Source of the DNA: an uncultured Flavobacteriales bacterium
Lineage (GTDB): Bacteria > Bacteroidota > Bacteroidia > Flavobacteriales > Crocinitomicaceae
Length of the DNA stretch: 64,000 nt
NCBI GenBank assembly: GCA_946482515.1
Contig: CAMLRS010000015.1
Span: 1 to 64,000 of the forward strand
Direction of reading: 5' to 3'
Below are positions 2,161 through 60,873 of this stretch, one piece after another. The notes under the pieces were generated by a model, which ran no database searches, had not been told where the DNA came from, and saw only the letters and a list, made by a program, of their open reading frames with translations. How positions within the stretch are numbered: the first letter of the stretch is position 1; every line of letters begins with the position of its first letter. The translations under genes were made by a program, and so were the position numbers.

Positions 2161-2240
2161 TTCAGAAAGCAGAATTCAGAATTCAAAATGCAGAATTGCT
2201 CCAATAATTACGCATTCTGAATTATGCATTGTGAATTGTC
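2161..2240. repeat. AT-rich word repeat, family A, copy 1
   Basis: About 80 nt made of degenerate copies of the words AGAATTCAGAATTC, AAAATGCAGAATT and CATTCTGAATTATGCATT in both orientations. It fills the spacer from the porin stop to the fabG -7 box. Related tracts occur at 3013-3050, 55381-55419 and 60806-60873. Confidence 0.8.
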
Positions 2241-2243
2241 TTG

Positions 2244-3015: not shown

Positions 3016-3050
3016 TTAATGCACAATTCATAATTCAGAATGCATAATTC
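3013..3050. repeat. AT-rich word repeat, family A, copy 2
   Basis: Runs from the fabG stop codon into the terminator: CACAATTCATAATTCAGAA then TGCATAATTC. Same words as copy 1, so fabG is bracketed by family A on both sides. Confidence 0.8.
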
Positions 3051-3079
3051 AATCCCGTGGCGATGCTGCGGGATTTTTT
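3051..3079 (+). terminator. Rho-independent terminator after fabG
   Basis: AATCCCG (3051-3057) pairs with CGGGATT (3069-3075), followed by a T run to 3079. Confidence 0.85.
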
Positions 3080-3143: not shown

Positions 3144-6100
3144 TTACTTCTTGCGAAGGGTTGGAATTTTGATCTTCTCGGCTGCAACGAGTGCTTTGCG
3201 GGTAAGATCGTAATAGAGCATAATCAGGAGAACGATGGTCATACCCCACAAAACGAGCACATTGCCCCAGAACGTACTGACGCGCTGGCCAAAAATGTAT
3301 TTCTGATGCGTATAGAATGGGGCATCGAGGAAACGCACCCCGATCGGATCGATGAATAACGGATCGTCTTTCTGAAGAATTTCGTCTTCGGTAACAATCA
3401 TTTTCTGCACTTCCGTACGGTTGGTCACCAGGTCCTGCAGGCTTTCATTCATATACGAATTCTGACTTTTCTGGAAAGTGCTGTCGCCGGTTTTGGCAAT
3501 AACGTTGTCCAGCTGGGCGGAAGCGTCGTTGTAATTGCGGTTGTACTGTTCTTTCAGAATATCGATAAAAGCACCAATGTTTTGCTGAATTTCTGCTGTC
3601 GAAGCGCCATATTTCAGCTGTTCAAGACCGATTACACAATCCTTGCATGGCAGGTTGTCCCACAGATTGAGCTCTTTCTGTATTTCATTCGAAAGCACAC
3701 GGCGTGCATGATCGAATACTTTTGGTGTGGATTTTTTATCGCTGAGCAGGTTCAGCTGATTTTTCATCTCCGGGATCCAGTAATCGCGTTTCCAGCCACA
3801 GCTGCTCTTGCGCTGATCGAGCTTGAAGAGCTTTTGTTCATGGTAGTTGTCACTGGATTGTACAACGGCCAATGCTTCGTATGCCCAGCGCGAAGCCATG
3901 AGGTTCCCGATCCACGGCACTTCATTGGTGCGAGAGAAAATAGGGTGGAGCTTGTCGAATTTCACGATCACACCACTGAAGAGCAATTGTGGAATGATGA
4001 GCAGTGGAACGGTGATGTAAATCACTTTGGCGGAGTTGAACGCCGAAGAAATGTTGAGTCCGAGGGCATTTGCCAGGCACGATGTGGAGAACAGGATGAC
4101 CCAGTATTGCCACCACATGCCCTGTATTTCGAGCACGAAGTTTCCGACACCAACAAAGAACAGGGTCTGTATGCCCGAAATGATGAACATGATGGAAACT
4201 TTCGACCACAAATAGCTGGCGCGGGAAAGGTTGAGGAAGCTTTCGCGCTTGAGGATTTTCTTGTCTTTGATAATTTCTTCCGCTGCAACGGTCAAACCAA
4301 GGAAAAGTGCCACGACCACAGCAATAAAGAGGTATTGCGGGATGTTTTCGTTCGAGAAGAAGATGTATTGCGAGTCGGAGCCGGCATCGTAGTTGAAGAA
4401 CTTGACGAAAAACGCCAGGATCAAAGCCAGTACGGGTGCTTCGAGCATATTGATGAGCATGTACTGGCGATTGGCGATTTTGCTCAGCACATCGCGCAGG
4501 AAAAACACTTTGAACTGCGACAGACGTGAAGCGATTTTCGAACTACCGGTTACAGGTGGCAGCTGTTTGTCGCTGATTGGCTCAGAATGATTCTTCAGGA
4601 AACGCTCGTTCCATTCTTTCGGAGAAACTTTGCGATATTTCGTCAGGTTCCCGTATTCGTCCACGACCTTCGATTCGATAATGTTGAAGATCTGCTCCGG
4701 GTTCACATTACCACATACCGGGCATTCCCGCTCGTTGGCGTTGACGTGATGGATATGTTTTTTGAAATACACGACCGCATCGATCGGGTTGCCGTCGAAA
4801 ATAGGGTAGCCGCCGTGATCGAGGATCAGGAGCTTGTCGAACATTTTGAAAATATCCGATGAAGGCTGGTGGATCACCACAAATACGAGCTTTCCTTTCA
4901 GGGCGAGCTCTTTGAGCATGTCCATGATGTTCTCCGAATCGCGCGAAGACAAGCCCGATGTCGGTTCATCGACAAACAGTACCGTTGGTTCACGGATGAG
5001 CTCCAGGGCGATGTTCAGACGCTTGCGCTGACCACCTGAAATGGTTTTATCGAGCGGACTTCCTACGCGCAGGTGTTTCACTTCGCTAAGTCCGATATCG
5101 GAAAGCAGATCGAGGACTTTTTTCTTGATCTGCGTTTCGGAAAGCTCGCTGAAACACAGCTTGGCATTGAAATACAGGTTCTGAAAAACGGAAAGTTCTT
5201 CAATGAGCAGGTCATCCTGGCTCACGAAACCGATGACACCTTCCAGTCGTGATTTTTCCTTGTGCAGATCAACGCCGTTAATCGTAACCGCACCTGAAGT
5301 AGGCGTGTAGTTACCATTCAGTACGTTGAGGAAGGTCGATTTTCCGGCTCCGGAACCGCCCATTACACCGACCAGCTTTCCGGATGCTTCGCGGAAATTG
5401 ATCTCGTGCAGGCCGATTTTTCCGCTTTTGAACTGGAAAACGAGCTTATCGACATTGAAAATGATCTTATCGGTATGGTTATCGCGCAGGAAACGCGAAA
5501 TCACGTCGCTGTAATAGATCGGAGAGCTTTTCGCCGTACGCAGAACCGAACCCTGGTTGAGGATGTGGTGGCGTTCGTTGGAAATGCTCTGACCGTTCAG
5601 GTTCAGCTCATCTGAGCCATAATAGCGGAAGAACAGGATATTCACGCTTTCCATGCGCACCACGCGGATGATACCGTCGAGGGCATCGAGTCGAATCAAC
5701 GGTGCCTGCTCCAGCGTTAGGTCTTTTCCTGAAATGTAAAGGAAATGGTCTTCGTCGATGAGATTGGTGATCGGTTCCTCGATGAAACGACGAAGCTGCG
5801 TGTATTCTTTCGCTGAGATGTTGAACGATTCGGATACCGTTTCCACGAATTCCTGTTCCTGCTCATGCACCTGGTCGTTGGCGTGAATGAACTCGAAAAT
5901 ACGCAGCAACACGATCATTTTCTGTCGCTGGGTGAGCTCTTCGTTGATCTGGGAACAGATGCGCAGTACTTTCACCGAGTTGACGGAAGTACGCTTGCGC
6001 TGACCGTCTTTTTTGGAAGAACCGCTGTGGTGAACAAGCAGGAACTCGTCGAACAGCTGGATGTAATGATTGATCAGCTCGTTGTTGAGCTCCGAACGCA

Positions 6101-7582: not shown

Positions 7583-7747
7583 AGAGGAAAGTTGTTGCAT
7601 ATTCTGCGACTAAAATATACAAAATAGTGAACTGGGAACGACAATTGTTAATAATTATCAATAAGTAATGTGTAACGGCAGTGTTAAGGTGAATTTTCGC
7701 TCATCATCGTCGTTTTTAGTTCAAATTCTTTGTGTTGGATAACAGGA
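7583..7747. other. Spacer upstream of the lipoprotein operon
   Basis: AT-rich DNA between the minus-strand lipoprotein start and repeat family B. On the minus strand CTATTTTGTATATTTTAG holds near-matches to TAnnTTTG and may be the operon promoter, but no exact box with a -33 element is present. No ORF is convincing. Confidence 0.4.
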
Positions 7748-7902
7748 TTTCAAGATATTAGGACATTAGACATTAGACATTAGATTGATAGACTATAGAT
7801 GGGAGACCGAAAGACCGGGGACTGGGGACTGGGGACTGGAAAGTTGAAGAGTTACTGAGCCACGAACTTCCAACTAGCAACTTCTAACTAGTAACTAGTT
7901 AC
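7748..7902. repeat. Composite word repeat, family B, hemB copy
   Basis: Ordered blocks of short degenerate words: TTCAAGATATTAGGACATTA and further TTAGACA words; GACTATAGATGGGAGACCGA; AGACC with triple GGGGACTG; AAGTTGAAGAGTTACTGAG; then AACTTCCAACTAGCAACTTC and TAACTAGT words. It ends directly at the hemB -7 box. The tract upstream of rpe (32584-32752, minus strand) has the same blocks in the same order. Confidence 0.85.
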
Positions 7903-7910
7903 TATCTTTG
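7903..7910 (+). promoter_or_regulatory. hemB -7 promoter box TATCTTTG
   Basis: Exact TAnnTTTG, 15 nt before the ATG. No TTTG at the expected -33 distance, where repeat family B lies. The rpe promoter has the identical box in the same repeat context. Confidence 0.7.
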
Positions 7911-7925
7911 CCCAAAATCACTCTT

Positions 7926-8897
7926 ATGCATATCCGTCCGAGAAGAAACCGCAAGAACAGTGCGATCCGAGCCATGGTGGAAGAAACCAGGCTGCATGCC
8001 GATAACCTGATTTTCCCGGTTTTCCTGCAAGACGGAACGGGGATTCAGCACGAGATCAGCTCGCTGCCGAACAATTACCGCTGGAGTCTAGACAAGCTGC
8101 TTCCTGCATTTGAATCCTGGATGGAGCTGGGTATCCGCACGTACGATCTTTTTCCGGCCGTTGACGAGCATTTGAAAGACGCTATCGGTTCCTATAGTTA
8201 TGCCGATGAGAATTTTTACCTACACGTGATCCGTACGCTGAAGGAACGCTTCCCGGAAGCCGTTCTGATGTCGGATGTGGCGCTGGACCCTTATTCTTCA
8301 GACGGTCACGACGGTATTTACGAAAACGGACAGATCCTGAACGATCCTACGCTTCCTATTCTCGGACGCATGGCTGTCGCCCAGGCGCAAGCCGGAATCG
8401 ATATCATCGGTCCTTCGGATATGATGGACGGCCGTGTCGGCGTGATCCGCGATGAGCTCGATGAAGCCGGTTACACCGATGTTTCCATCATGTCGTATAC
8501 TGCTAAATATGCGAGTGCATTTTACGGTCCGTTCCGCGAAGCATTGAACTCAGCCCCGAAATCGGGTGACAAGAAAACCTACCAGATGAATCCGGCCAAT
8601 AAACGGGAAGCCTTGCTGGAAGCAGAGCTCGATGTAGCCGAAGGAGCTGATTTCCTCATGGTAAAGCCGGCATTGTGCTACCTCGATGTGATCCATTTGC
8701 TGAAAGAAAACTTCGTACAGCCAATTACCGCCTATAATGTAAGTGGCGAATGCGCTATGGTTTACGCCGCAGCACGCAACGGATGGCTCGATTTCGACCG
8801 TACGATGATGGAAATGTTGCTGAGTATCCGCAGGGCAGGAGCCGATGGCATCCTGACGTATTTTGCGCCGGAAGCGGCAAAACTGATGAAAGGGTGA
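7926..8897 (+). CDS. hemB: Delta-aminolevulinic acid dehydratase (porphobilinogen synthase)
   Basis: Condenses two 5-aminolevulinate to porphobilinogen in haem synthesis. 323 residues, usual length. Schiff-base lysines are visible as K194 (SYTAKYASAF) and K247 (LMVKPALCY). The metal segment reads DVALDPYSSDGHDG, so the cysteines of the zinc type are replaced by Asp. By family knowledge this marks the magnesium/potassium-dependent, zinc-independent class. The N-terminus MHIRPRRNRK is standard; a TTG further upstream lies inside the promoter box and was rejected. Monocistronic, framed by family B repeats. Confidence 0.95.
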   Translation: MHIRPRRNRKNSAIRAMVEETRLHADNLIFPVFLQDGTGIQHEISSLPNNYRWSLDKLLPAFESWMELGIRTYDLFPAVDEHLKDAIGSYSYADENFYLHVIRTLKERFPEAVLMSDVALDPYSSDGHDGIYENGQILNDPTLPILGRMAVAQAQAGIDIIGPSDMMDGRVGVIRDELDEAGYTDVSIMSYTAKYASAFYGPFREALNSAPKSGDKKTYQMNPANKREALLEAELDVAEGADFLMVKPALCYLDVIHLLKENFVQPITAYNVSGECAMVYAAARNGWLDFDRTMMEMLLSIRRAGADGILTYFAPEAAKLMKG

Positions 8898-9030
8898 TCG
8901 CAGGACGCCAAGACTTCAGGATATTAAGACTTCAAGACCTTAGACTTAGGGACAATGGACTGGAGACTGAAAACCGGAGGCTGGAATAAAAGTCATAAAA
9001 TCCTAATGTCTGACATCTTAATATCCATTA
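8898..9030. repeat. Composite word repeat, family B, nnr copy
   Basis: Contains AAGACTTCAGGATATTAAGA, CTTCAAGACCTTAGACTTAG, GGACTGGAGACTGAAAACCG and, in inverted orientation, CCTAATGTCTGACATCTTAA TATCC as two adjoining words. It fills the hemB-nnr gap. A TATCTTCA sequence at about 9033-9040 is a degenerate -7 box for nnr. Confidence 0.75.
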
Positions 9031-9045
9031 TCGTATCTTCAGGAT

Positions 9046-13310: not shown

Positions 13311-13364
13311 ATGAACACGTACAAGTCACAATTCCATCATTACCATCATTGCATGCTTTGCTAA
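13311..13364 (+). CDS. hisL: Histidine operon leader peptide
   Basis: A 17-codon ORF, MNTYKSQFHHYHHCMLC then TAA, with four His codons in a five-codon window (HHYHH). It is followed 37 nt later by a strong intrinsic terminator and then hisG. This is the layout of ribosome-mediated attenuation: when charged tRNA-His is scarce the ribosome stalls on the His codons and the terminator is avoided. Too short for routine gene finding. The -7 box ends only 5 nt before the ATG, so the message is probably leaderless. Confidence 0.85.
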   Translation: MNTYKSQFHHYHHCMLC

Positions 13365-13401
13365 GCGCATTGGTGAGAGAATTGTACACGATACAAAATT
13401 T

Positions 13402-13432
13402 AAACCCGCTTGGCTTTCCAGGCGGGTTTTTT
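13402..13432 (+). terminator. his attenuator terminator
   Basis: AAACCCGC (13402-13409) plus TGG pairs with CCA plus GCGGGTTT (13422-13429), followed by a T run. It lies between the leader peptide and hisG, so it is a regulated terminator. Confidence 0.85.
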
Positions 13433-13473
13433 ATTTCAGACAACTTTCCGGGAGCCAGGCATAAACAACGAAG

Positions 13474-14331
13474 ATGAAACGTTTGATTATTGCTTTACAG
13501 AAATCTGGAAGGCTGCAGGAAGGCTCGCTGAAGCTGCTACGCGATTGCGGTATGAAGGTCGATTACCGCGACGGCCAGCTCAAAGTAGTGGCAGGTGGCT
13601 ACCCGGCCGAGCTGTTGTTCCTGCGAAACAGCGACATTCCCGAATACGTAGCCGACGGTGTGGTCGACCTGGGAATTGTAGGCAGCAACCTGCTCGAAGA
13701 AGAAAACGCACCGGTACAGATCGTACAGTCGCTCAATTTCTCCAAATGCCGCGTATCGTTTGCTGTTCCGAAAGATTCACCGATTCGCGATGTTACCGAT
13801 TTACAAGGGAAACGCATCGCCACATCGTATCCGAATACGGTCGAAAAGTTCCTTTCACGCCAGCAGATCACGGCTGATATTCATACCATTTCCGGTTCTG
13901 TCGAAATAGCCCCGTCTCTTGGATTGGCGGATGTGATCGCCGATATTGTTTCTACCGGAAACACCTTGTTTCAGAATGGTTTGCGCGAGGTGTTCTCTTT
14001 CCTGGAATCGGAAGCGGTACTCATTCGCGGCAACAATTTCGACCCGGAAAAACAGCCCTTGCTCGATCAATTAGTGTTTCGCATTCAATCTGTATTGGCG
14101 GCTGCTGAGAACAAGTACATCCTGCTGAATGCGCCAAACGATCAGCTCGACAATATCTGTGGCATCTTACCAGGTATGAAAAGTCCAACGATTTTGCCAC
14201 TTGCCATAGATGGCTGGAGCAGCGTACACTCGGTTGTAGCGCAGGCTGATATCTGGTCTGTAGTTCACAATCTTAAAACCGCCGGTGCACAAGGGATTCT
14301 TGTAGTGCCTATTGAAAAAATGATCGCTTAA
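13474..14331 (+). CDS. hisG: ATP phosphoribosyltransferase, long form
   Basis: First step of histidine synthesis: ATP + PRPP to phosphoribosyl-ATP. 285 residues, the long form with a C-terminal ACT-like domain (about 210-285) that mediates feedback inhibition by histidine, so no HisZ is needed. Typical segments: MKRLIIALQKSGRL, DLGIVGSNLL, and the PRPP loop region ADIVSTGNTLFQNGL. First structural gene of a nine-function operon; all following genes overlap or nearly touch. Confidence 0.95.
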   Translation: MKRLIIALQKSGRLQEGSLKLLRDCGMKVDYRDGQLKVVAGGYPAELLFLRNSDIPEYVADGVVDLGIVGSNLLEEENAPVQIVQSLNFSKCRVSFAVPKDSPIRDVTDLQGKRIATSYPNTVEKFLSRQQITADIHTISGSVEIAPSLGLADVIADIVSTGNTLFQNGLREVFSFLESEAVLIRGNNFDPEKQPLLDQLVFRIQSVLAAAENKYILLNAPNDQLDNICGILPGMKSPTILPLAIDGWSSVHSVVAQADIWSVVHNLKTAGAQGILVVPIEKMIA

Positions 14332-31906: not shown

Positions 31907-32557
31907 TTAAAGTGCTTTCAAAGAAGCAATCACGGCCGTCGGATCTGCATTCCCAAACACAAAGCTTCCGGCAACGAGCGCATCGGCACCTGCGGCAACC
32001 AATTCTGCACCTGTTTCGGTATTCACGCCGCCGTCTACTTCAACGAGTGCTTTAGAGCCTTTTTCAGCGATGAGCTGTTTGGTTTGTTTCACTTTGTCGA
32101 TGGCCGTGCGGATGAATTTCTGTCCGCCGAAGCCCGGATTAACCGACATGATCAGTACGAGGTCGAGATCGGCAATTACGTTTTCCAATGCGCTCACCGG
32201 TGTGTGTGGATTCAAAGCTACACCTGCTTTCATTCCAGCTTCCTTGATGGCAGCTATCGTGCGGTGCAAATGCGTGCAGGCTTCGTAATGAACTGTCAGG
32301 ATATCGGCGCCGGCTTTTGCCAGCGGAGCGATGTACTGATCCGGATTCACGATCATAATGTGTACGTCGAGCGGTTTTTTTGCCACCTTTTTCAATGCTT
32401 CGATCACCGGGAACCCGAAGGAAATGTTCGGAACGAAAACGCCGTCCATCACATCAACGTGGAACCAGTCGGCCTGGCTGTTGTTGATCAGTTCGAAGTC
32501 GCGCTGGAGGTTACCAAAATCGCAGGAAAGAATGGAAGGGGCAATGATGACCGACAT
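31907..32557 (-). CDS. rpe: Ribulose-phosphate 3-epimerase
   Basis: Pentose phosphate pathway, ribulose-5-P to xylulose-5-P. 216 residues, beta/alpha barrel. IAPSILSCDFGNL, HVDVMDGVFVPNIS, LDVHIMI, MSVNPGFGGQKF and EVDGGVN with the catalytic Asp pair and metal His/Asp are all present. Monocistronic. Its promoter box and upstream repeat are near-identical in organisation to those of hemB. Confidence 0.95.
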   Translation of the reverse strand: MSVIIAPSILSCDFGNLQRDFELINNSQADWFHVDVMDGVFVPNISFGFPVIEALKKVAKKPLDVHIMIVNPDQYIAPLAKAGADILTVHYEACTHLHRTIAAIKEAGMKAGVALNPHTPVSALENVIADLDLVLIMSVNPGFGGQKFIRTAIDKVKQTKQLIAEKGSKALVEVDGGVNTETGAELVAAGADALVAGSFVFGNADPTAVIASLKAL

Positions 32558-32575: not shown

Positions 32576-32583
32576 CAAAGATA
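32576..32583 (-). promoter_or_regulatory. rpe -7 promoter box
   Basis: CAAAGATA on plus, TATCTTTG on minus: exact TAnnTTTG, 18 nt before the rpe ATG. Same ACTATCTTTG sequence as at hemB. Confidence 0.7.
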
Positions 32584-32752
32584 GTATTTAGTTGGAAGTT
32601 GGTAGTTTGAAGTTACGAGTTGGTTTGAAGCTAGTGAACTCACTAACTCTTCAACTTCTCAGTCTCCAGTCTTTCGGTCTCCTGTCAATCAGTCTTGATG
32701 TCCTAATGTCTTAAAACCTGTCTGCCGACAGGCAGGTCCTGAAGTCCCGAAA
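32584..32752. repeat. Composite word repeat, family B, rpe copy
   Basis: Read on the minus strand: TTAGGACATCAAGACTGATT, then GACAGGAGACCGAAAGACTG, GAGACTGAGAAGTTGAAGAG, TTAGTGAGTTCACTAGC, and AACTTCAAACTACCAACTTC CAACTA words, ending at the rpe -7 box. Same block order as 7748-7902. It also contains repeat D (32716-32737). Confidence 0.85.
32716..32737. repeat. Palindromic repeat D (CCTGTCTGCCGACAGGCAGG)
   Basis: CTGTC-TGCC-GACAG hairpin with direct AGG/CCT flanks. A diverged copy is at 56156-56182. This sequence type is, to my knowledge, frequent between genes in Bacteroidota. Confidence 0.65.
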
Positions 32753-34333
32753 TCAATTTGGGTAAAACCAGGCTACATAAGCAGCATCGCGGCCGTAAAT
32801 GTCCGGATGGATGGTCAGGCGATTGGTTTCATCGGCCGTAACGGTGATGTAATCTACCTGGATATCGATCGGATGCTTGAGCTGGATTTTGCGGTGTTCC
32901 TGGCGGTAGAGCATGGAATCGAGCGAGTCGGGTGGCATCATGCGTTGTTCATCGCGACGGAGAATAAAGCGCGCCAAAGAATCCGGTAGCTGACAGCGAA
33001 TACAACCGTGTGAATAAGAGCGGACGTCGTTGCGAAACAGGCTTTTCGAAGGTGTGTCGTGTACGTAAACCCCATACGGATTGCTGAATTCAAACTTGAT
33101 GATTCCCAATGAATTGTGTGTTCCTGGATCTTGTATTACTTTATACGGAAATGTTTTGTCACGAATGCGTTTCCAGTTCACCGAATACGGATCGATTTCT
33201 TCGGATTTGTTGTAGACACGGTAATGGTTCCGTGCAAAATAACCGGGATTGCGCTTGGCTTCCGGCAGGATTTCCTTGCTGGTAATCGAGTAAGGAATGG
33301 TCCAGTAAGGATAGGAAACGATGGTGCGAATGCGCGATTTGAGCTGCGGCGTTTTGGTGTCGATTTTTCCTACCACGACGTTGTGCATGGAAAAGAGCGT
33401 ATCGTTGTAGTAAATGCGAAGCACGTATTCCGGAATGTTGATCCAGACATAGCGTTCCGGAAAGCGTTCCCGCCAGCGCCAGCGCTCGAGTGAAAGCACA
33501 ATGCGATCGACTTTTGCCTGAGCGGATTCTTCCAGTGCTTTTCGTGTATAGGTTCCGATCACGCCGTCGGTTTTCAGACCGTTGTCGAGCTGGAAGTTGG
33601 AAAGCGCTTGCAGGAAGATGGAATCGGGAACGGCATCTTTGGGCAGGTAGCCTTTGTCGATGAGCGATAAACGCCCCTGTTCGTAGCAGCCTGCTGAATC
33701 TTCCTTGATGTTGGGCAGCTTGAATGTCTTTTCGGAGAAGCTTTTCCCGAAGGAATAGCTGAACAATCCCTGCGCAATGCGTTTGTAATCGTCGTGTGGC
33801 GAGCCCATATCGGCAAACCATTTGCCCCAGTTTTTCACCGTATCGACTTGCTTAGAAAGCGTTTGAACGACCAGCACATCAGGCCAGGAGCAAGGCTTCA
33901 GGCTTTTCGCGGCGGTATCGAGGAAACCGGTTTTGAGATCCTTTACGGCATAACCGAACTGGGTGGTCATCAACAGCTCTTTGGCGATCAGCTCTTTTTG
34001 GTTGTTCACTTTCTGTTTCCAGCGACTCGTTGGCACACCGATGCAAGAGGGTTGTGTAACGATCTGCTGCATGGTTTTTCCTGTTTCTGTCAGCAGGGAA
34101 TCATTGGCCCACAGCGGACGGTAGCCACGCTCGCGGTAGAACGTTTTGATGGATTCGGCAGTGGTTGCGTCAACGCCCAGCTCTTTGATATAGCCTTTTT
34201 CGAGTGCCAGGCGGATCCGCGTATGCAAGGGTTGTTTATCGTCGAAAATAGGATCGGTGTCCGGAATTTTTTCCGCACAGGAAGTGGCTGCAAGCGCAAT
34301 GAATAATATCAGGTAACAGCAGAAAGGCTTCAT
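32753..34333 (-). CDS. L,D-transpeptidase (YcbB-like), lipoprotein
   Basis: 526 residues. Lipoprotein signal ending ATSC near residue 19. A peptidoglycan-binding-like helical region (about 215-265, LDNGLKTDGVIGTYTRKALE) precedes the YkuD catalytic domain (about 300-460), whose motif SYSHGCIRC carries the catalytic Cys, His and Arg. It should make 3-3 cross-links or attach proteins to peptidoglycan in the periplasm. Divergent from the rhomboid gene with a 53-nt gap. Confidence 0.88.
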   Translation of the reverse strand: MKPFCCYLILFIALAATSCAEKIPDTDPIFDDKQPLHTRIRLALEKGYIKELGVDATTAESIKTFYRERGYRPLWANDSLLTETGKTMQQIVTQPSCIGVPTSRWKQKVNNQKELIAKELLMTTQFGYAVKDLKTGFLDTAAKSLKPCSWPDVLVVQTLSKQVDTVKNWGKWFADMGSPHDDYKRIAQGLFSYSFGKSFSEKTFKLPNIKEDSAGCYEQGRLSLIDKGYLPKDAVPDSIFLQALSNFQLDNGLKTDGVIGTYTRKALEESAQAKVDRIVLSLERWRWRERFPERYVWINIPEYVLRIYYNDTLFSMHNVVVGKIDTKTPQLKSRIRTIVSYPYWTIPYSITSKEILPEAKRNPGYFARNHYRVYNKSEEIDPYSVNWKRIRDKTFPYKVIQDPGTHNSLGIIKFEFSNPYGVYVHDTPSKSLFRNDVRSYSHGCIRCQLPDSLARFILRRDEQRMMPPDSLDSMLYRQEHRKIQLKHPIDIQVDYITVTADETNRLTIHPDIYGRDAAYVAWFYPN

Positions 34334-40475: not shown

Positions 40476-43400
40476 ATGAAAAGATTGATCAGATCTATGC
40501 TCTGTCTTGGGTTAGTATTCCTGGCAGGCAGCAATCTTCTCGCGCAAAATGTCAGCACAGGAACTGACAACGCGGGCAACTCTATTCCCGTCGGTGCTGT
40601 CGATCCCAACTGGGAGATCACTGCCGGGCCGATCATGCCAACGGCCTACCGGGTCGTATCACACCCAATGTGGGAGCCGACACCTGTCCTCGGTACAAAT
40701 GCCGGATGGATTAACGGTACAGGTACACTGTACAATAACCCTCCGGGAACGTACACGTTCGAGCGTTCGTTCACTATCAGCAACTCCATCAGCAGCTTCA
40801 CTACCGATTTCGATGTGGCTGTCGATGACCTGTTGCTAACGCTCGAGCTGGTAGATCCGATGGGAGGTATCATCCCGCTCGGTGTTCCGCCATCCTCACC
40901 ATTCCTGCAGCCTGTACCAAACTATACACAGGTCGCACCGATGATGGGAACGTGGAAAATCCGGGCGCGTGTGTATTTCGCAGATCCGCTCGGAGGCTGG
41001 CTGTTATCGGGACACGTCCGTACAACCTGTGGTGATGAGCCATGTAACTGCGAGGATTTGCAGCCAATATTCGATTACACCATCGATCTGTGCAAAGGTA
41101 CCTTCTATGCCGGCGGAGACATTCCTGCCTGCCTTTCCAATGTGAAATACGACTGGTATGTGAACGGTAGCTATGTTGGCTCCGGAACACCATTTACGTA
41201 TACCTTCCCTGGAAACGGCGCCTACACAGTTTGCCTCAAAGTCAGCGGCACAACGCCGGATGGTACCAAGTGTGAGAAAGAGTTCTGTAAGAGCATCAGT
41301 ATCACCGATTGTGATTGCGATTGTTCGCAGCTGCAACCGAATTTCGACTTCAATATTAACCTCTGCGAAGGAACCTTCTACGCCGGTGGTAATATTCCTG
41401 ACTGTCTTTCTGATGTGAAATACGACTGGTATGTAAACGGCTGGTATGTAGGCTCTGGCACACCATTCAGCTACACATTCTCTTCAAATGGTATTTACAC
41501 CGTATGCCTTGTTATCAGCGGAACCATGCCGGACGGAAGTATCTGTTCGAAAGAATTCTGCCGTGAGGTCAAAGTGAAAAACTGCGGATGTAACTGTGAA
41601 CAGCTGCAGCCAACCTTCGATTATGTGATCGATGCTTGTAAAGGAACGTTCTTCGCAGGTGGTAACATCCCGTCTTGCCTTTCCAATGTGAAATTCGACT
41701 GGTATGTGAACGGCGGCTTCGTTGGTTCAGGAACACCATTCTCTTACACATTCCCAGGCAACGGAACATACATTGTTTGTCTGAAAGTAAGCGGTGTGAT
41801 GCCGGATGGAAGTATCTGTTCGAAAGAATTCTGCCGTGAAGTCACCATTACCAATTGTGGATGCCACTGTGAACAGCTGCAGCCATACTTCGACTTCCAG
41901 ATCAATCAATGTACGGGCGTCTTCTACGCTGGTGGAAACATCCCGGCATGCCTCACAAACATCAAGTACGACTGGTATGTGAACGGCGGCTACGCTGGTT
42001 CAGGTACACCATTCACGTACACATTCCCGGGCAACGGAACGTATGTTGTTTGCCTTGTGATCAGTGGTACGATGCCGGATGGAAGCATCTGCTCGAAAGA
42101 ATTCTGCCGTGAAGTGGAAATAACCGATTGTGGTTGCAACTGCGAAGAACTGCAGCCGATCTTCGATTACTACATCAATCTCTGCAAAGGTACATTCTAT
42201 GCCGGTGGCAACATTCCTGACTGTCTGACCAACATTAAATACGACTGGTCAGTAAACGGTTCTTATGTTGGTTCAGGTACACCATTCACATATACCTTCC
42301 CAGGTAACGGTGTGTATGTTGTTTGCCTCAAAATCAGCGGTACAATGCCGGATGGAAGCATCTGCTCGAAAGAATTCTGCAAAGAAATCCACATCACGGA
42401 TTGCGGATGTAACTGTGAGCAATTACAGCCAGACTTCGACTTTGTAATCGACAACTGTAAAGGGACATTCACCGCAACAGGAAATATCCCGGCTTGTCTC
42501 CAGAACATCAAGTACGACTGGTTCGTTAACGGAAGCTATGTTGGTTCCGGTACGCCATTCTCGTACACATTCCCTGGAAACGGTTGGTATGTTGTTTGCC
42601 TCAAGGTAAGCGGAATCATGCCTGACGGAAGTACTTGCTCGAAAGATATCTGCAAGGAAGTACAGATAACCAATTGCGGATGTAACTGCGAATTGCTGCA
42701 GCCGATCTTCACTTATGTGATCGATGGTTGCGTAGTCAGATTTACTGCCGGTGGCAATATCCCTGACTGTCTGCAAAACGTAACATTCGACTGGTACGTA
42801 AACGGTATGTATGTAGGATCAGGTAATCCTTACCTGCACACGTTCCCAGGCAACGGAACTTACAACGTTTGCCTCATCGTAAGAGGTATGATGCCGGATG
42901 GATCGATCTGTGAGCGCGAATACTGCCGACCGGTTACGATCACCAATTGTGGTCCTTGTAACTGCGAGCAGCTGATGCCGCAGATCAATATCGCACTCAA
43001 CGGCTGCTGTGCACAGTTCAGTGTTGTTGCCGGCGTTCCGCCGTGCATGCACCACGTAACTTACAGATGGTTCGTAAACGGTGTGTATGTTGGAGCCGGA
43101 AATCCGTTCAACTACTGCTTCCCGGGCAACGGAACGTATAACGTTTGTGTTGTTGTAACAGGAACCACGCCTAGTGGACAGGTTTGCCAGCGTCAGGTTT
43201 GCCGACCGGTGCATGTGAAGAACTGTATCGGTGTACCGACAGATCCTACAGGCATCATGCAGAACAACGAAGAATCAGCTATCGAGCAATCGATGTTGCT
43301 GTACCCGAACCCTGCCAGCGATGAGCTGAACATTTCCTTCACATTGGAGGAAGCAGGTGAGGTAACGCTTCTGTTGAAATCGATGGACGGAAAAGAATTA

Positions 43401-43544
43401 CTGACTGAAAAGAGAACTGCGGAAGCAGGCGATCAGGAATTCGTTCTGAAAATCCCTGCGTCGGTGGTCAATGGTATGGTTTTCATTGAAATCCATGCAG
43501 CCAATGAACGCATCATTCGCAAAATCGAAATCTCCCGCCAGTAA
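40476..43544 (+). CDS. T9SS-exported surface protein with eight Cys-rich PKD-like repeats
   Basis: 1022 residues: signal peptide to LLAQ (about residue 23), a ~165-residue N-terminal domain, eight tandem ~91-residue repeats (190-917) and a type A T9SS sorting domain (about 940-1022, LLYPNPASDELNISF). Each repeat has eight near-invariant cysteines (unit positions 1, 3, 17, 30, 64, 77, 82, 90), the strand DWYVNG.YVGSGTPF and FPGNGTY.VCL typical of PKD folds. The cysteines probably form disulfides. It should be a secreted or cell-surface adhesin; ligand unknown. The last two repeats are the most diverged. Confidence 0.88.
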   Translation: MKRLIRSMLCLGLVFLAGSNLLAQNVSTGTDNAGNSIPVGAVDPNWEITAGPIMPTAYRVVSHPMWEPTPVLGTNAGWINGTGTLYNNPPGTYTFERSFTISNSISSFTTDFDVAVDDLLLTLELVDPMGGIIPLGVPPSSPFLQPVPNYTQVAPMMGTWKIRARVYFADPLGGWLLSGHVRTTCGDEPCNCEDLQPIFDYTIDLCKGTFYAGGDIPACLSNVKYDWYVNGSYVGSGTPFTYTFPGNGAYTVCLKVSGTTPDGTKCEKEFCKSISITDCDCDCSQLQPNFDFNINLCEGTFYAGGNIPDCLSDVKYDWYVNGWYVGSGTPFSYTFSSNGIYTVCLVISGTMPDGSICSKEFCREVKVKNCGCNCEQLQPTFDYVIDACKGTFFAGGNIPSCLSNVKFDWYVNGGFVGSGTPFSYTFPGNGTYIVCLKVSGVMPDGSICSKEFCREVTITNCGCHCEQLQPYFDFQINQCTGVFYAGGNIPACLTNIKYDWYVNGGYAGSGTPFTYTFPGNGTYVVCLVISGTMPDGSICSKEFCREVEITDCGCNCEELQPIFDYYINLCKGTFYAGGNIPDCLTNIKYDWSVNGSYVGSGTPFTYTFPGNGVYVVCLKISGTMPDGSICSKEFCKEIHITDCGCNCEQLQPDFDFVIDNCKGTFTATGNIPACLQNIKYDWFVNGSYVGSGTPFSYTFPGNGWYVVCLKVSGIMPDGSTCSKDICKEVQITNCGCNCELLQPIFTYVIDGCVVRFTAGGNIPDCLQNVTFDWYVNGMYVGSGNPYLHTFPGNGTYNVCLIVRGMMPDGSICEREYCRPVTITNCGPCNCEQLMPQINIALNGCCAQFSVVAGVPPCMHHVTYRWFVNGVYVGAGNPFNYCFPGNGTYNVCVVVTGTTPSGQVCQRQVCRPVHVKNCIGVPTDPTGIMQNNEESAIEQSMLLYPNPASDELNISFTLEEAGEVTLLLKSMDGKELLTEKRTAEAGDQEFVLKIPASVVNGMVFIEIHAANERIIRKIEISRQ
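41043..43226 (+). repeat. Eight coding repeats of about 273 nt
   Basis: Each unit encodes one 91-residue Cys-rich module beginning C-x-C. Units 2-6 stay similar at the DNA level (for example ATGCCGGATGGAAGCATCTG recurs), so recombination between units could change copy number. Confidence 0.9.
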
Positions 43545-55380: not shown

Positions 55381-55419
55381 TTAATGCATAATTCAGAATG
55401 CAGAATGCACAATTTTTTT
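55381..55419. repeat. AT-rich word repeat, family A, copy 3
   Basis: TTAATGCATAATTCAGAATG then CAGAATGCACAATTTTTTT, starting at the mannosidase stop codon. Confidence 0.75.
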
Positions 55420-60805: not shown

Positions 60806-60873
60806 GAGCAATTATGAATTATGAAGTATCAATTATGAAGAGGGGCTACCCTTGATAATTCATAATTGATCAA
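60806..60873. repeat. AT-rich word repeat, family A, copy 4
   Basis: AATTATGAATTATGAAG and TATCAATTATGAAG face ATAATTCATAATTGAT across a short spacer, so the tract can form a hairpin between the two convergent genes. The words continue into the last codons of the lipoprotein gene (ATTAATAATTGAGAAT). Confidence 0.75.

Follow-up and report, generated by a model that had tools for sequence, protein, structure and literature searches.

The hemB and rpe genes of the window (the whole stretch of 64,000 nucleotides analysed here) are each preceded by a tract of degenerate 7–8-bp words that ends at the −7 promoter box, and comparison with a sister genome reveals that, in the interval separating a stop codon from the −7 box, such tracts arise or are replaced by other words while the box itself stays. 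We interpret them, with a probability of about 0.55, as fast-turnover heptamer mosaics that fill weakly constrained DNA reaching from a stop codon to the −7 box. The pair of sister genomes displays the behaviour of such tracts over time and suggests that upstream promoter DNA in this lineage is only very lightly constrained; it also makes the choice between passive slippage, a terminator and a promoter module testable.

The hemB tract spans positions 7753–7902 on the plus strand and is built of TTAGGACA/TTAGACA words, GAGACCG and GACTGGG words, AAGTTGAAGAGTTA and, as its last component, AACTTCC/AACTAGT words. It is followed by the −7 box TATCTTTG (7903–7910, plus strand) and by the gene for delta-aminolevulinic acid dehydratase, hemB (7926–8897, plus strand; Pfam ALAD), the ATG of which is at 7926. 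On the minus strand, the rpe tract (32584–32752) has the block order of the hemB tract, begins where the upstream gene, L,D-transpeptidase-like, has its stop codon and leads into the same box, TATCTTTG (32576–32583, minus strand), ahead of the ATG at 32557 of ribulose-phosphate 3-epimerase, rpe (31907–32557, minus strand; Pfam Ribul_P_3_epim). Both boxes (7903–7910 and, read in the direction of the gene, 32583–32576) fit TAnnTTTG and lie shortly ahead of the start codon. The 7–8-bp units of both tracts are TTAGACA/TTAGGACA, GACTGGG/GAGACCG, AGTTGAA/AGAGTTA and AACTTCC/AACTAGT, and the longer strings shared exactly include GAGACCGAAAGAC (7803–7815 in the hemB tract; 32669–32681, minus strand, in the rpe tract), AAGTTGAAGAGTTA (7841–7854; 32644–32657, minus strand) and ACTATCTTTG. 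The rpe tract is more degenerate than that of hemB and is detected at lower thresholds only. At its far edge lies a palindrome, CCTGCCTGTCGGCAGACAGG (32717–32736, minus strand); similar palindromes occur among heptads at three loci of the sister genome G134 (L111, L118 and L121) and at locus L114 of genome G140. The words that a sequence-only reading had placed, in order, upstream of hemB and rpe are found where it put them, with both tracts ending at TATCTTTG, and this confirms that its observation is real.

Global alignment of the two tracts gives a score of 136.5, compared with 38.8±6.4 (maximum 59.5) for dinucleotide shuffles, none of which reaches it in 300 trials; the common module order that had been claimed for the two loci is borne out by this value. 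When the five blocks of the hemB tract were permuted and aligned to the rpe tract, the native order ranked second among 120 permutations, and the single better-scoring permutation shifts the GACTGG block to the front with nothing else changed. Three of the alignment gaps are of length 7 and the others are of different lengths. Expressed in word classes picked by hand, the hemB tract reads ABCcC and the rpe tract, turned, reads ABCc. The same hand-picked classes were applied to 38 word clusters (3 from the window and 35 sampled from G134), and the order ABCc was found in none of the 35 G134 clusters, which points to related copies and not to a rule of the class. Block order as a class feature, which the sequence-only reading had proposed to scan for, is thus confined to two tracts in this sample, and a class-wide block grammar was rejected. 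We read the hemB and rpe tracts as related copies of one composite rather than two cases of a syntax.

Heptad periodicity recurs elsewhere in the window. At a stricter threshold, we detected seven segments at lag 7, five at lag 14, one at lag 21 and none at any other lag from 4 to 22, every one of them intergenic (7/7 at lag 7); at a lower threshold, intergenic DNA held eight segments at lag 7 and one each at lags 6, 8 and 15. Three of the seven stricter lag-7 segments lie within the hemB tract, and the remaining four are AT-rich arrays just behind stop codons (2163, 3018, 55382 and 60810). These include an AATTCA array in a convergent gap (3018–3051), an AATTCAG/AATGCAG array (55382–55413) and an AATTATG array in a second convergent gap (60810–60839; fold z of the gap −4.8). 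Two further tracts had been absent from the sequence-only reading. One follows the hemB stop codon (8901–9026, plus strand) with CAGGAC/AAGACTT and GACTGG words and then AATCCTA/TGTCTGA, and leads to TATCTTCA at 9034–9041 and an ORF from 9046. The other (2161–2243, plus strand) has AATTCAG/AATGCAG words behind a stop codon and inverted GCATTCTG words, and runs into TATATTTG at 2244–2251.

Beyond the window, the samples of G134 and G081 show a clear heptad signal and that of G006 a weak one, and in the lag scan of the G008 and G001 samples lag 7 does not rise above other lags. Eighteen heptad segments of G134 are intergenic and seven lie in called ORFs, with intergenic DNA making up 52 of the 483 kb. 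Lag 8 is also enriched in intergenic DNA (lag 7/lag 8 counts of 29/17 in G134 and 11/16 in G081), indicating a repeat unit that switches between lengths of 7 and 8 bp; lag 16 is enriched along with lags 7 and 8 in both. When gaps of at least 60 nt in the window and G134 are sorted by the direction of their flanking genes, a tract is present in 24 of the 132 that are co-directional, 9 of the 48 that are convergent and 6 of the 56 that are divergent, so that a tie of tracts to promoters only is not upheld. Gene calls were made by a simple longest-ORF procedure, and gene-start assignments carry some error.

G134 (3.6 Mb) is close enough to the window for site-by-site comparison, with 98% identity in hemB and 99% in rpe over residues 1–148 (the gene includes a masked stretch). 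Its hemB promoter has no tract, with neighbour and leader unchanged (the leader reads GTATTTTTGCCCAAAATC in G134 and CTATCTTTGCCCAAAATC in the window), and DNA homology between the two genomes breaks off at 7699 and is found again from the first base of the box, 7903, onwards. The rpe promoter of G134 does have a tract, one built of different words, with TTGGACA/ATGGACA/GTTGACA following the stop codon and TTGTCCA/TTGTCAA leading up to TACTTTTGCGC. Here, homologous sequence extends as far as 32579, inside the box, and begins again at 32753, at the upstream stop codon. At 2161–2243, the AATTCAG/AATGCAG words of the window stand against TTGACA/TTGTCC words in G134, both preceding the same TATATTTGAAGCC, and behind hemB the CAGGAC/AAGACTT family is present in both genomes, with GACTGG words in the window alone. 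The four comparable tract sites in G134 therefore comprise one that is empty, two that are reworded and one that keeps its family. Tract-free gaps at sites A, D and F are still recognisably similar in the two genomes; that at site G has diverged, and G134 has a different palindrome there. Besides hemB and rpe, the comparison rests on sites A, B (2161–2243), C (behind hemB), D, F and G; no usable pairing was obtained at sites E, H and J, and sites I and K are within genes. The suggestion that these tracts insert or grow is supported in that both gain and replacement are visible against G134 (hemB, rpe and 2161).

How closely arrays adjoin the −7 box was analysed with an AACT array pattern, AACTnnnAACTnnnAACT, which occurs 173 times in G134 compared with 21 times for its backward control. 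The pattern is followed by TAnnTTTG within 0–12 nt six times in G134 (control 0) and three times across the remaining 199 genomes (control 6); combined with the reversed box TTTGnnTA it was found in none of the 200 genomes, its own backward control giving 11 counts. Extending the distance to 0–20 nt and the search to 399 genomes of the order gave 25 counts, spread over 13 genomes and including 11 in G134 (control 0), and outside G134 the combination of array and box is not enriched (14 compared with 20 backward-control counts). Among 31 G134 AACT arrays picked without regard to the box, 13 lead to a gene start, 10 enter the stop codon of an opposite-strand gene, 6 are far from called genes and 2 are in called ORFs. 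An exact TAnnTTTG was present in 6 of the 13 gene-start arrays, in all six at most 12 nt from the array end, compared with 50 of 248 G134 gene starts that have TAnnTTTG in their last 60 nt; the other seven have no exact box, several showing near misses such as TATCTTCA. A repeat class that often adjoins promoters, with arrays ending at the −7 box (6/13), is supported in this way; a tie to promoters only is not, given the 10/31 arrays that enter stop codons. For 7/8-bp tracts in general, pooled from the window, G134, G081, G006 and G008 with both window tracts counted in, seven lie at most 10 nt from a box where 2.6 are expected under uniform placement (p 0.011), but at the distance of at most 5 nt that had been put forward as a check there are three, with 1.4 expected (p 0.17); the same scan of G001 gave none. 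For AACT arrays in G134 the abutment to the box is clear; in general it is modest.

The arrays also have a polarity. Where two AACT arrays of G134 lie on opposite strands and are separated by less than 300 nt, AGTT comes first and AACT second in 11 of 11 pairs among the matches listed, the pairs being drawn from 64 merged arrays that represent 100 of the 173 places. In a mixed set of 30 arrays, among them loci selected for the box and both arrays of the window, the AGTT partner is upstream in 12 cases and downstream in 1. Taken over all words, the polarity is modest (odds 2.8, p 0.005; 1.34, p 0.05 in tract-free gaps), and word-cluster transitions run 21 to 8 in its direction. The same asymmetry is reported for G-rich heptamers of Xanthomonas and Nostoc in the consulted part of Rehm et al. 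(2015, PMC4692102).

The heptad structure, the copy relationship, the gain of tracts and replacement of their words, the breaks in homology and the AGTT-first, AACT-second polarity are direct observations. To account for them, we envisage degenerate 7/8-bp word mosaics that would be rewritten quickly, with strand slippage adding or removing units and words perhaps copied between tracts. Tracts would occupy the interval from stop codon to box because this stretch is under little constraint: the recognisable promoter of the lineage would consist of the −7 box and a short leader, with no clear −33 element detectable, and selection would halt the tract at the box. The tract itself would have no promoter function, and its inverted arms may double as a transcription terminator where a gene ends upstream, with folding potential at some sites. 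An excess of TATCTTTG at tract boxes and the strict polarity are not predicted by a purely passive tract.

The TATCTTTG excess is the least explained of our results. In the window and G134 loci, 7 of the 12 AACT-tract boxes are TATCTTTG, compared with 3 of 49 others (p 1.7e-4); the 12 include both boxes of the window and loci retrieved with a pattern in which nn was free. With the window excluded, the proportions in G134 are 5/12 and 3/40 (p 0.011), and in other genomes 7 of 11 tract boxes (orthologous pairs merged; 9/14 before merging) are TATCTTTG, compared with 49 of 316 boxes that come mostly from genomes other than those of the tract boxes (p 5.8e-4). Three explanations can be given: the box arrived together with the tract, a promoter without an upstream element needs the best box, or the word AACTATC supplies half of it. 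The first of these amounts to a promoter cassette, in which tract and −7 box are copied together and a TATCTTTG promoter is installed, by gene conversion or template switch with the downstream junction in the shared TTTGC. We regard this as possible but doubtful. The excess holds in G134 and in other genomes, and both window loci have TATCTTTG where G134 has TATTTTTG (hemB) and TACTTTTG (rpe). At 2161, however, the words differ and the box TATATTTG is identical in both species; AACTATC contributes part of the box by itself, a promoter lacking an upstream element may just require the best box, and the provenance of the comparison boxes in other genomes weakens that contrast. If the cassette were true, the stop-codon-to-box interval of one gene would be overwritten by the tract of another, and housekeeping promoters would be rewired by repeat-templated conversion with the box as landing site. 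Sigma-A promoters of the Bacteroidota have a TTG/TTTG element at −33, and the sequence-only reading had suggested that the tract replaces this element; a tract that does so and supports transcription is, in our judgement, very improbable. Both tracts span the −33 position, and TTTG is absent there from the hemB and rpe promoters, as had been noted, but this is not distinctive. At the −33 spacing, TTG occurs in 8 of 44 non-tract promoters of the window and G134 (6 of 44 at a control offset), in 5 of 34 of G081/G001 (control 6), in 28 of 118 of G006/G008 (control 17) and in 37 of 149 hemB loci (control 36), compared with tract-promoter counts of 0/6 in the window and G134, 1/2 in G081/G001 and 0/2 in G006/G008. 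Most non-tract promoters thus also lack TTG, and none of the four promoter sets has more than a weak −33 signal; the same promoter moreover has different words in the two species. Replacement of the −33 element was accordingly rejected.

Folding bears on a further alternative, that the tract is a transcription terminator or mRNA 3′-end element whose inverted arms form the hairpin of the upstream gene, the next promoter being merely adjacent. Strong folds relative to shuffled sequence are found at G134 rpe (z −5.2 and −6.8 in two analyses), at G134 2161 (−6.1), in two convergent G134 gaps (−7.5 and −4.5) and at 60806 in the window (−4.8), as a terminator would predict; intermediate values are obtained at 2161 (−2.2), 3016 (−2.0) and 8898 (−1.4) in the window. 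The rpe and hemB tracts themselves fold weakly (−1.2 and −0.4, respectively), as do 55381 in the window and L163, L176 and L229 in G134, which speaks against a hairpin as the explanation of the two focal tracts. The hemB gap, moreover, is divergent and has no gene end inside, and divergent gaps are not significantly depleted of tracts (6/56 compared with 33/180, p 0.22). We consider the terminator unlikely. A riboswitch was rejected, the sole Rfam match of the window at gathering score being a tRNA at 1–54; the 5′ end of this tRNA gene is cut by the window edge. A post-transcriptional element in the 5′ leader, as the consulted part of MacGregor (2015, PMC4679880) proposes for the TAACTGA repeats of Beggiatoaceae, would fit the orientation of AACTnnn words before start codons, which is that of TAACTGA. 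Yet the hemB and rpe arrays end upstream of the −7 box, outside the mRNA if that box is used, and we consider such an element very improbable. Fast-turnover mosaics halted at the box remain the interpretation that we favour.

Relatives beyond G134 were surveyed at both genes. A blast search with the hemB tract matched its TTAGAC part in 6 of 20 relatives, and a search with the tracts in 200 genomes matched a CCTGCC palindrome and short words in 7; since matches were mostly of these kinds, word patterns were used for the genome counts. A tract at hemB was looked for in Fluviicola B02.bin.61 (L001) and is absent there; a Flavobacteriales metagenome-assembled genome (L007) has one of TTGTCCT words. 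The rpe orthologue of G081 has AACTCAT words ahead of TATCTTTA, and those of G001, G115, G093 and G030 have short AATTATC/GATAATT repeat arms before the box, so that all five repeat the anatomy seen in the window with other words. The rpe gene of G002 has a short GAGTCC/GACTC repeat, and in G024 a different gene lies upstream of rpe. One record, L002 (CP034120.1), is titled Glaciecola amylolytica and is probably mislabelled: its hemB is 83% identical to that of the window and is set in a Fluviicola-like neighbourhood. Arrays of heptads with different words (GGAGTAG, CATCCCT, CCCTAAA, GCTACAG, AATGACC and GTACTTT) were seen in Saprospirales, Fulvivirgaceae, Telluribacter and Algoriphagus (L050 at 5800–5899 and 13450–13520, L046, L075 and L077), which indicates that such arrays are widespread in the phylum.

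Two other features of the window were recorded. At 13311–13426, within a gap of 252 nt that precedes an ORF at 13474, a short ORF, MNTYKSQFHHYHHCMLC, is followed by a GC-rich hairpin and a T run; this looks like a histidine-operon leader peptide with its attenuator, and the candidate is kept in G134. A tandem repeat with a 273-bp unit (5.1 copies, 73% matches) occupies 41517–42902, within the ORF 40476–43544.

Intergenic 7-bp tandem units are familiar from the short tandemly repeated heptanucleotides (STRR) of cyanobacteria, which the window arrays resemble in that respect and which come from another phylum. Closer to the present lineage, the consulted part of MacGregor (2015, PMC4679880) describes TAACTGA heptamer direct repeats that are intergenic, tandem and, in most sets, forward before start codons; they are reported in five Bacteroidetes, two of which have other intergenic heptamer repeats too, and close relatives have shorter gaps and no repeats. 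The window arrays are likewise intergenic tandem heptamers, with AACTnnn in the same orientation before start codons. Unlike those repeats of one fixed word, as that part of the paper presents them, they are many-word mosaics with opposite-orientation arms that end at the −7 box, upstream of the presumed transcription start, and TAACTGA itself was not found in the window arrays, the words of which are AACTTCC, AACTAGT and others.

The G-rich heptamers GGGNATC and GGGGA(C/T)T of Xanthomonas and Nostoc vary in unit number between relatives, and the G-rich word lies nearer the 5′ neighbouring gene in any gene orientation, according to the consulted part of Rehm et al. (2015, PMC4692102). In the hemB tract, the GACTGGG words are this GGGGACT unit and show the same asymmetry. 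At least two GGGGACT units are present there (7816–7839), together with three GGGG runs and one GG, and the rpe tract has no such units. Unlike the Rehm repeats, just part of the hemB tract is of the GGGGACT type and the rpe words have no GGG runs; a relation to the −7 box is not described in that part of the paper (PMC4692102). The TAnnTTTG consensus that both window boxes fit is that of the Bacteroidota sigma-A promoter, described with three motif variants in Flavobacterium psychrophilum in the consulted part of PMC9723704, which, unlike the window, mentions no repeat tract as upstream neighbour. The titles and abstract openings of the open-licence papers searched name no heptad tracts at −7 boxes, and the function of heptamer repeats in unrelated bacteria is described as not established in the parts consulted of PMC4692102 and PMC4679880. 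Intergenic heptamer repeats as such are known; what is informative here is that their mosaics occupy the interval that a stop codon and the −7 box delimit, and that they undergo turnover from one sister species to the other.
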